Of a stretch of DNA of 56,309 nucleotides, positions 34,805-42,462 are shown piece after piece (within the stretch, counting starts at the first letter, position 1; each line of letters begins with the position of its first letter). Under the pieces are notes generated by a model that did not search any database, was not told the DNA's origin, and saw only the letters and a list, made by a program, of their open reading frames with translations. A program made the translations under genes and the position numbers. Source of the DNA: Rhodothermales bacterium (GTDB lineage Bacteria > Bacteroidota > Rhodothermia > Rhodothermales > UBA10348); NCBI GenBank assembly GCA_024711125.1, contig JANJTM010000077.1:67836-124144 (forward strand), given 5' to 3'.

Positions 34805-36244
34805 TCACCATGCCACGCGGCGCGAGATCACCCGGCCGGTGGAGGAGGCGGTGGAGTCGCGGGCGGGGCCGGACCACCCGGCGGGCCGAGCGGCGTTCCG
34901 GGCGGCCGCGTTGGCGCGCAGTGCGGCCGAGGCGCGGCCGGCGGTCGACGTCGGCGCTTCTTCGATCCCGGGTGCGGCGGCCGGGGTCACCGATACGGGA
35001 TCGGACGAGGACGGGCGCGTCGCTGCGAGCATGGGCCCATCCGCGTTCGAGACGCGTGCCGTTTCGAGCCGGACGTCGCGATAGTAGAAGTCGAGGATCT
35101 CCCGGTAGCTCTTCCCGTCGATCGCCATGCCGTGCGCGCCCCACTGCGAGAGGCCGACCCCGTGCCCGTACCCGCGGCCCGAAAACACGTAGCTTCCGGC
35201 GTCGGTACGCAGGTCGAACAGGGTCGAACGCAGGGCCGTCGGCCCGAAAGTCCGGATGATCTGCAGGCGGAAGTCCTGGGTGGAAAGCTCCCGGTCGCGT
35301 CCGCCGGATCCCCGCAGGCGCAGGGTACGCGCGCGGCCATCCGGGGACCTTTCGCCGATGGCGATCGAGCGCACGTCGGCGCCGAAGGCGTCCCGAAGCA
35401 CCGCGTGCAGCCGGTCGGCGTCGATCTCCCAGGTCCACGATCGGTGCGGCGAGACGGCGTCCCATGCGTCCTTCCGACCGCGCAGGTACGGAAGTGCCGC
35501 CGCCTGCCAGACGTCCTCGTTGTTGGCCGTGTGGCCTCCGCTCGACGAGTAGTAGGTCGCCACGATCAGGTCGCCGCCGTAGGTCAGCACCTCGCCGGCC
35601 GTAGCGCGCGCGGCCTCGAGCGCGCGCGCCGTCACGGCCCGGTTTCCCTTGTACACTTGGGACAGCGTGTGGTCGACCTGGTCGTACTCGGCCGATCGAA
35701 GGGCCTTCAGAGCGTACGTGCGGGCGATCACCGCCATGGCCTTCGAGCCCTCGACGTCGTCGAGCCCGTACTCCGAGGCCACCACGCTGGCCACGTAGTC
35801 TTCGAGCGGAACGTGGTTGACGAGCCGCAGCGCAGACGAGCCGGCCTCGGCGGTGGCGTGGATCGACCCCAGGTAACTGCGCGTGGCCGAGCCGACCTGC
35901 AGCGTGACCGCTTCGGTCTCACGCGGCTCGATGCGCACGGCGGGCGCCTGCAGCGTGCCGCGGGCCGACTCCACCCGGATATCCCGGCCGTCCCGGACGA
36001 GGGTCATGCGGGCCCCTCCCGGCAGCGAGAATCGCGGGCGCTCGTCGTCGCCCGCGAACACGTCGAGTCCGGACGCGGGAGCGTCCACGACCACCGAGCG
36101 GGGCGCCAGCTGTTCCAGGAGGCGCACGCGAAGCACGCCGGGGATCTCCCGGTCGGGGTTCGGAGCGGCGGTCGCCGGGCGCAGCGCCACGAACAGGCAC
36201 ACCACGGCCACGACCCGCAGGGACGGGAAGGGGTTCGAAGACAT
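34805..36244 (-). CDS. SpoIID/LytB-family secreted lytic transglycosylase
   Basis: 479 residues with an N-terminal signal sequence. The SpoIID domain is clear: PLEDYVASVVASE with the catalytic Glu158, RTYALKALRSAEYD, YSSSGGHTANNEDVW and the GRGYGHGVGLSQWGAHGMA box. Bacillus SpoIID cleaves glycan strands already stripped of stem peptides. Non-spore-formers of the Bacteroidota group also carry SpoIID-like proteins. The last 75 residues are Ala/Pro/Ser-rich and probably disordered. Upstream are accD and tsaB on the same strand, 177 nt away; downstream is the TonB receptor. Confidence 0.88.
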   Translation of the reverse strand: MSSNPFPSLRVVAVVCLFVALRPATAAPNPDREIPGVLRVRLLEQLAPRSVVVDAPASGLDVFAGDDERPRFSLPGGARMTLVRDGRDIRVESARGTLQAPAVRIEPRETEAVTLQVGSATRSYLGSIHATAEAGSSALRLVNHVPLEDYVASVVASEYGLDDVEGSKAMAVIARTYALKALRSAEYDQVDHTLSQVYKGNRAVTARALEAARATAGEVLTYGGDLIVATYYSSSGGHTANNEDVWQAAALPYLRGRKDAWDAVSPHRSWTWEIDADRLHAVLRDAFGADVRSIAIGERSPDGRARTLRLRGSGGRDRELSTQDFRLQIIRTFGPTALRSTLFDLRTDAGSYVFSGRGYGHGVGLSQWGAHGMAIDGKSYREILDFYYRDVRLETARVSNADGPMLAATRPSSSDPVSVTPAAAPGIEEAPTSTAGRASAALRANAAARNAARPAGWSGPARDSTASSTGRVISRRVAW

Positions 36245-40352: not shown

Positions 40353-41432
40353 TTGCGGACAGACCGGCTCCATACCACCGACAAGGCCCGGCGGGCCATG
40401 CTCGAGGCGGTGGCCGAGGAGAATCGCCGCATGCTCGATGATCGCGCCGGCGCCCGGAGCGCCGTGCGGAGAAGGCGCTACGCGGGAGGGGCGGTTGCGT
40501 TGGCGCTGGTCGCCGTAGTCGTCGCCGTCGCGATGGGCGGGTCGCCGGGTCGGCAGCGGGCTACCGTGACGATCCCGACGGAGAGCGATGGGGCCTCGCC
40601 GTGGGCCGCCTTCCTCGAGCGGGTCAGCCTGCTCCCCGAAGACACGACGGGGCAGGAGGACGAGTGGATACCGGAGGAGGAATTCAGGGCGCTCTCGGCG
40701 CAGGGAACACCGCTGGCGCAACTGTTCGGCCTTCACGTGCGCACGGTGGTGATCGATGCCGGACACGGCGGCGCGGATCCCGGTTCGATAGGGGCCTCCG
40801 GGTTGAAGGAAAAGGACGTTACGCTGGATGTGGCGCTCCGGCTGGAGCGTCGCCTGGTCGCAAGAGGCTACGACGTGCGCCTGACCCGCTCGGACGACCG
40901 GACGGTCAGCCTCCGCGATCGTGTCGGGTTCACCAACGGGGTCGAGACCGACCTCTTCGTCTCGATCCACGTCAACAGTTTTCCGACCGATTCGGTCAAC
41001 GTCCTCGAGACGTTCTATTTCGGCGCGGGCGGGGGTGCGGCGGTCGAGCGGGCCGCGGAGGCCGAGAACCGAGGCAGCGATTTTTCCGTGGCCGATTTCG
41101 ACCGTCTGATTTCGGACGTGGTCACCACCGTGAAACTCCAGGAGTCGCGCCGTCTGGCGCGCTCCATCCAGCGATCCCTCGTGCGCAGCGTGCGCACGGC
41201 CGACGGGCCCATCTCGGACTGGGGCACCAAGCCCGGACCGTTCGTCGTCCTGCTCGGCTCCCGGGCCCCCAGCGTCCTGGCCGAAATCGGCGTCATCTCC
41301 CACCCCGAAGGCGAGCGCAGGCTCGCCGACGAAGCCTACCGAGAGCGACTGGCGACGTGGCTCGAGGAAGGCATCCTGAACTACCTCATCAGCCGATCCC
41401 GAGAGGAACCCGGCGCAAACCCCGTGGACTGA
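40353..41432 (+). CDS. Membrane-anchored N-acetylmuramoyl-L-alanine amidase (Amidase_3)
   Basis: 359 residues from TTG 40353 (ATG 40398 would remove 15). A basic cytoplasmic tail of about 42 residues precedes one membrane helix (about 43-63), then a linker and the Amidase_3 domain from residue 128. Zinc ligands and catalytic Glu are intact: VVIDAGHGGADPG (His138), GLKEKDVTL (Glu153), FVSIHVNSF (His206) and SVLAEIGVISH (Glu311). It removes stem peptides from peptidoglycan in the periplasm. The MamK-like actin gene starts 1 nt after its stop, so the two must be co-translated; the cytoplasmic tail could contact the filament (inference). Confidence 0.92.
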   Translation: MRTDRLHTTDKARRAMLEAVAEENRRMLDDRAGARSAVRRRRYAGGAVALALVAVVVAVAMGGSPGRQRATVTIPTESDGASPWAAFLERVSLLPEDTTGQEDEWIPEEEFRALSAQGTPLAQLFGLHVRTVVIDAGHGGADPGSIGASGLKEKDVTLDVALRLERRLVARGYDVRLTRSDDRTVSLRDRVGFTNGVETDLFVSIHVNSFPTDSVNVLETFYFGAGGGAAVERAAEAENRGSDFSVADFDRLISDVVTTVKLQESRRLARSIQRSLVRSVRTADGPISDWGTKPGPFVVLLGSRAPSVLAEIGVISHPEGERRLADEAYRERLATWLEEGILNYLISRSREEPGANPVD

Positions 41433-41433
41433 C

Positions 41434-42462
41434 ATGGCCTCCAAGAAGAAGCAGGGCACCGGCGAGGCGCTCTATATCGGCATCGATCTCGGCACGTCGC
41501 GCAGCGCGATCGTCGCCTCGAACGGAAAACGCGACTGGATCGACAGCTACGTCGGGTGGCCCCGGGACTTCGTCGCGAAGAAGATGCTCGGCAAGCCCAT
41601 CCTCTACGGCGCCGACGCTCTCGCGAACCGGCTTTCGCTCCACCTCGTGCGCCCGCTCGAGGCCGGCGTGATCCGCGACGGATCGCAGAGGGCCGAGGAG
41701 GCCGTGCGGGAGCTGGTGCATCACCTCATCCGCCAGGTGGACCCCGGAGACGCGACGGAGATCTACGCGGCGGTGGGCGTACCGGCCGAGGCGCTTCGCG
41801 TCAACAAGCTCGCGATCCGGAACGCGGTGAAGGAGTATGCCGACTCGCTGATGGTGGTGTCGGAACCCTTTGCCGTCGCCTACGGTCTCGGGACGCTGAA
41901 CAACGCGCTCGTCATCGATATCGGTGCCGGTACGGCCGACTTCTGCATTCTCCACGGTACCATGCCGGGCGAGGAGGACCAGCGCACGCTCGCGATGGCG
42001 GGCGACTGGCTGGATCAGCAGCTCCACGAGCGGCTGGCCGAGCGATTCCCGGAGGCCTCCATCAGCCTCCCGATGGTGAAGTCCTTCAAGGAGGAACACG
42101 GGTTCATAGGCAATCACAGGGACCGCGTCAAGGTCAAGGTGCCCGTGAAGGGCGTTCCGACGTCCATCGAAATCACCGCCGACCTGCGACGGACGTGCGA
42201 GAGCCTTCTCCCGGTGCTCGCCGAGGCGACGACCGATCTCATCGCCCGCTACGAGCCCGACTTCCAGGAGGAAGTCAAGCAGAACATCTTCCTCGCCGGA
42301 GGGGGCAGCCAGATCAAGGGTCTCGCCGAAGGGCTCGGCGAGCAACTGGCCTCCTACGGTCAGTTCACGGTGCGCACGATCCAGGACCCGCTCTTTGCCG
42401 GCGCCGAGGGCGCGCTGGCGCTCGCGCAGGACATGCCGGCCGAGTACTGGGTGGAGATGTGA
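41434..42462 (+). CDS. MamK-like bacterial actin
   Basis: 342 residues. The actin-fold signature is complete: phosphate-1 loop LYIGIDLGTSRSAIV (13-27), the catalytic-Glu segment VVSEPFAVAYG (Glu144), phosphate-2 VIDIGAGTADFC (160-171) and the adenosine motif NIFLAGGGSQIKGL (284-297). Length, spacing and the texts VGWPRDFV, GVPAEALRVNK, GTMPGEEDQ and the ending PAEYW follow magnetosome filament protein MamK far better than MreB, ParM or FtsA. No other mam gene is nearby. It starts 1 nt after the amidase stop. I infer a cytoplasmic filament used in wall cleavage, division or placement of something other than magnetosomes. Confidence 0.85.
   Translation: MASKKKQGTGEALYIGIDLGTSRSAIVASNGKRDWIDSYVGWPRDFVAKKMLGKPILYGADALANRLSLHLVRPLEAGVIRDGSQRAEEAVRELVHHLIRQVDPGDATEIYAAVGVPAEALRVNKLAIRNAVKEYADSLMVVSEPFAVAYGLGTLNNALVIDIGAGTADFCILHGTMPGEEDQRTLAMAGDWLDQQLHERLAERFPEASISLPMVKSFKEEHGFIGNHRDRVKVKVPVKGVPTSIEITADLRRTCESLLPVLAEATTDLIARYEPDFQEEVKQNIFLAGGGSQIKGLAEGLGEQLASYGQFTVRTIQDPLFAGAEGALALAQDMPAEYWVEM

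Follow-up and report, generated by a model that had tools for sequence, protein, structure and literature searches.

Bacterial actins have known roles in organising wall synthesis and division as well as plasmids and magnetosomes. The E. coli amidases AmiA and AmiC are soluble periplasmic enzymes, and to our knowledge the magnetosome mamAB operon includes no amidase partner for MamK. BeeR, a MamK-related actin of non-magnetotactic bacteria that carries an N-terminal extension, was described for Verrucomicrobiota in a paper that mentions no amidase (PMC11929497). Bbp (big bacteria protein) is a MamK-like actin of non-magnetotactic Desulfobacterota and Gammaproteobacteria; its operon was described as comprising the actin, a hypothetical protein and a Kelch protein, and the word "amidase" is absent from the text of that paper (PMC10580974). 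In the literature on MamK-type actins that we searched, with subscription papers and preprints mostly outside its scope, the gene pair reported here is undescribed.

Identification of an amidase-actin gene pair

Our analysis identified two adjacent ORFs within the window, that is, the whole stretch of 56,309 nucleotides of Rhodothermales DNA that was analyzed:

40353-41432, forward strand: membrane-anchored Amidase_3 (N-acetylmuramoyl-L-alanine amidase), with a TTG start and TGA at 41430-41432 (Pfam PF01520)
41434-42462, forward strand: MamK-type actin, with ATG at 41434 and a stop at 42462 (NCBIfam, PDB match and structure model)

The junction between the two genes is a single nucleotide (C) separating TGA from ATG. 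The original prediction had given the coordinates, the junction of 1 nt and the two family assignments, and the ORFs together with the Pfam and NCBIfam scores bear all of these out. That prediction had also placed no mam gene nearby, which agrees with our family scan of seven neighbours of the pair in the window: all seven are housekeeping or envelope genes, and no mam gene was found among them. A SpoIID/LytB-domain protein encoded 4 kb from the pair (34805-36244, reverse strand) is another possible wall enzyme. A search of viral contigs for the locus found none.

Family assignment and phylogeny of the actin

The window actin scored 399.4 bits against the NCBIfam MamK model NF040964 (curated cut-off, 400) and lower against other families (BeeR, 224; MreB, 78), while members of the amidase-linked clade described below scored 403-435 on the same model in eight other genomes. 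The top match in a PDB sequence search was MamK (5ljw; 281 bits, residues 11-341), and the predicted structure (pLDDT 90) is nearest to MamK in the filament (5ljv; TM 0.91/0.96). The magnetosome MamK of AMB-1 (PDB 5ljv/5ljw) shares with the window actin full-length homology (39% identity), the fold and the ATPase residues, whereas BeeR, although also MamK-related, is more distant (34% in structural alignment). Two residues could be mapped as follows:

41863-41865, forward strand: E144 of the actin, invariant in alignments A1 and A7
41917-41919, forward strand: D162 of the actin, invariant in alignments A1 and A7

We take E144 to be the counterpart of the MamK ATPase glutamate, and D162 that of MamK D161.

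In a tree of 137 actins, built by a quick method with SH-aLRT support only (no bootstrap) and with AMB-1 as the sole confirmed magnetosome MamK reference, the 83 amidase-linked actins formed a single clade (SH-aLRT 99), and the window actin branched apart from AMB-1 MamK, which fell in another group. This clade spans Rhodothermota, Desulfobacterota, Nitrospirota, Pseudomonadota and Aminicenantes (at least five phyla). Its members also differ from AMB-1 MamK in clade-specific residues that include W35, W42, F46, G83 and A131. Bbp resembles the window actin in being MamK-like outside magnetotactic hosts, and differs from it in its described operon. The actin was found in 12 of 296 sampled genomes of the window's phylum, all 12 within the window's order, and among the matches listed its closest named relatives are Rhodothermales.

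By family scores, PDB match, tree and structure alike, MamK is a closer relative of the window actin than either BeeR or MreB. Judged from its sequence, it is of the MamK type, not MreB, ParM or FtsA, and belongs to an amidase-linked lineage of its own, apart from magnetosome MamK. The likeness to MamK originally proposed thus holds as to type over MreB, ParM and FtsA, but the tree puts the protein in a separate amidase-linked clade, with AMB-1 MamK elsewhere.

Conservation and co-occurrence of the gene pair

An ortholog of the actin (59-79% identity) was present in 20 of 60 relative genomes, the organism's own included, and in all 20 the amidase was encoded immediately upstream on the same strand. 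In a search of named genomes with an actin profile, the amidase lay directly upstream in 80 of the best 80 loci (52-79% identity), which are the closest ones, picked on actin similarity alone, and in part duplicate the set of relatives; the pairing, on whose conservation the original prediction had been staked, is therefore strongly conserved. These loci come from Rhodothermales, Desulfobulbaceae and relatives, Nitrospirota, Gammaproteobacteria, Azoarcus and Aminicenantes. Across all loci, with the phylum samples added, actins at least 50% identical to that of the window were all amidase-linked, and those at most 48% identical never were within the 1.5 kb examined.

The distribution of the amidase follows that of the actin, in counts taken over phylogenetically non-independent genomes. 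It was present in 20/20 Rhodothermales genomes with the actin versus 0/40 other relatives, and a gap in score separates 20 genomes (2e-66 or better) from the others (5e-36 or weaker), those above the gap being exactly the genomes with a linked actin. A similar gap was found in Nitrospirota (18 genomes at about 1e-92 or better, the next at 1e-54), where the genomes with the amidase are again exactly those with the linked actin (18 of 246). Actin and amidase distances were correlated over 98 loci (r = 0.92; 0 of 2000 permutations), as expected where both are inherited as a unit. Overlaps of 14-56 nt between the two genes are seen in many pairs and are consistent with translational coupling. A third conserved gene was sought around the 80 loci and none was found, the commonest neighbour family occurring in only 12 of them.

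In 11 Nitrospirota loci (L067, L076, L081, L093, L096, L098, L100, L104, L110, L112 and L114), the gene directly downstream of the pair encodes a protein with a receiver domain, a membrane span and a SPOR domain, one member of this family having been scanned with Pfam. SPOR domains bind amidase-denuded glycan, a property in line with a function in division or in remodelling of the wall.

Several other loci deserve mention. A natural amidase-actin fusion suspected in L151 was rejected, as there are two separate frames. L042 and L043 are identical-looking amidase-actin loci in opposite orientation on one contig (JAJCYR010000091), reflecting either a duplication or an assembly artefact. A second Nitrospirota group of MamK-type actins (L131-L143; 41-45% identical) is found without the amidase, beside unassigned neighbours, and coiled-coil proteins are encoded upstream of three MamK-type actins of Desulfobacterota (L165, L167 and L169) that lie close to the amidase-linked clade. 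Ten neighbours of unlinked actins were scanned and contained no mam family, so we do not call these actins magnetosomal.

Predicted topology of the amidase and its N-terminal motif

The following features were located within the amidase ORF:

40398-40433, forward strand: copy of the N-terminal motif, MLEAVAEENRRM (residues 16-27; the invariant Asn is N24)
40482-40538, forward strand: predicted transmembrane segment (residues 44-62), the hydropathy maximum after a net-positive linker
40746-41378, forward strand: Amidase_3 catalytic domain (residues 132-342; Pfam PF01520, E 7e-45)

The TTG start is backed by a GTG at the equivalent position in L037, a close relative. Both the domain and the zinc-site motifs of Amidase_3 are present: residues H131, E146, H199 and E304 (L037 numbering) are invariant in alignment A3, and we take them to have the zinc-site roles usual in the family. 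Ahead of the membrane span lies a basic tail of about 43 residues, in keeping with the membrane-anchored, basic-tailed Amidase_3 first predicted. The enzyme is predicted to reside in the inner membrane, with a cytoplasmic N-terminus and a periplasmic catalytic domain. In the model of the L037 amidase, a helix (10-63) makes the motif helix continuous with the span, and is followed by a disordered stalk (66-96) and an AmiA-like catalytic domain; the motif falls within a confidently predicted helix (pLDDT 90, residues 11-20). E. coli AmiA and AmiC share the catalytic fold of the paired amidase, whereas the cytoplasmic motif and the membrane span belong to the latter only.

The cytoplasmic N-terminus carries the consensus [KR]xxILRGVYE[DE]NLRI, which we report here as a new motif. 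Over 94 amidases, Asn was counted 94 times, Leu 92, Val 83 and Tyr 83, in an alignment built around the consensus, a procedure that tends to raise such counts. We nevertheless consider the conservation real, because mean pairwise identity is 0.59 in the motif versus 0.23 for linker, span and stalk, and because the same Asn (N24) is invariant in the independent alignment A3. With start codons picked by us, the motif begins 4-20 residues after the start in most amidases (34 and 37 in two), and is followed by a basic linker of 11-42 residues, net positive in 97%, and then by the hydrophobic span. Real N-termini mostly score 8-12 of 12, and shuffled ones 3-5. The window copy is degenerate (5/12 consensus residues), does not on its own stand out clearly from shuffled N-termini, and was assigned by position and by its close relatives (MLRRVYEENRRI in L003/L037). 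The amidase of Roseithermus sacchariphilus has two copies. Across 44 genomes, the pattern GVYE[DE]N occurred beyond the paired amidases only in unrelated or out-of-context ORFs, and we regard these extra matches, MgtE among them, as unrelated or due to chance. In the single genome compared that lacks the actin, the relative G059, the closest amidase (L226), possibly not an ortholog, does not have the motif.

A putative link between filament and wall cleavage

Given the conservation of the tail motif, amidase and actin are likely, on sequence grounds, to be physically linked, whichever of the two acts on the other. We favour, with some reservation, a functional module in which a MamK-like filament is bound by the tail motif of the amidase, placing or clustering wall cleavage. 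The actin would polymerise into a cytoplasmic filament, as its family and fold suggest, and the N-terminal helical motif would bind it; peptidoglycan cleavage would then be placed or clustered along the filament, which would meanwhile be tied to the membrane. Control may also run in the other direction, with the amidase anchoring the filament, and the motif could instead bind another partner or govern membrane insertion.

A less likely reading, to which we still give some weight, is that the tail serves mainly as a membrane anchor and filament regulator, with the state of the filament sensed across the membrane and switching on an autoinhibited amidase, without positioning. The nearest solved relatives include AmiA (8c2o, the fold nearest to that of the L037 amidase; TMt 0.84) and AmiC, a helical insert (222-276) separates core strands of the L037 model, presumably where AmiA/B/C carry their regulatory helix, and the receiver-SPOR gene next to 11 Nitrospirota pairs is also consistent with such signalling; the disordered stalk, however, would be a poor transmitter of a conformational signal. 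It is improbable that the two proteins merely share a process, such as division, with joint transcription and inheritance but no contact: the gene overlaps would suit this, but it does not explain why the cytoplasmic motif is conserved while the adjoining linker, span and stalk diverge. That the actin is a stray magnetosome MamK adjoining an unrelated amidase, as its NCBIfam score at the cut-off might suggest, is contradicted by the separate clade and the conserved pairing and is most improbable.

If the module we favour is correct, it is quite possible, although we hold this only tentatively, that binding of a MamK-type filament to a short linear motif in the amidase tail represents a further coupling of cytoskeleton to wall besides MreB-RodZ and FtsA/FtsZ-FtsEX. 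Such a coupling would span at least five phyla through either great age or wide transfer, and may lie near the non-magnetosomal ancestor of magnetosome MamK. An actin dedicated to a wall hydrolase is undescribed as far as the literature searched shows. The pair places MamK-type actins in a setting outside magnetosomes, and its 12-residue motif, with the Asn24 equivalent, is a directly testable element.
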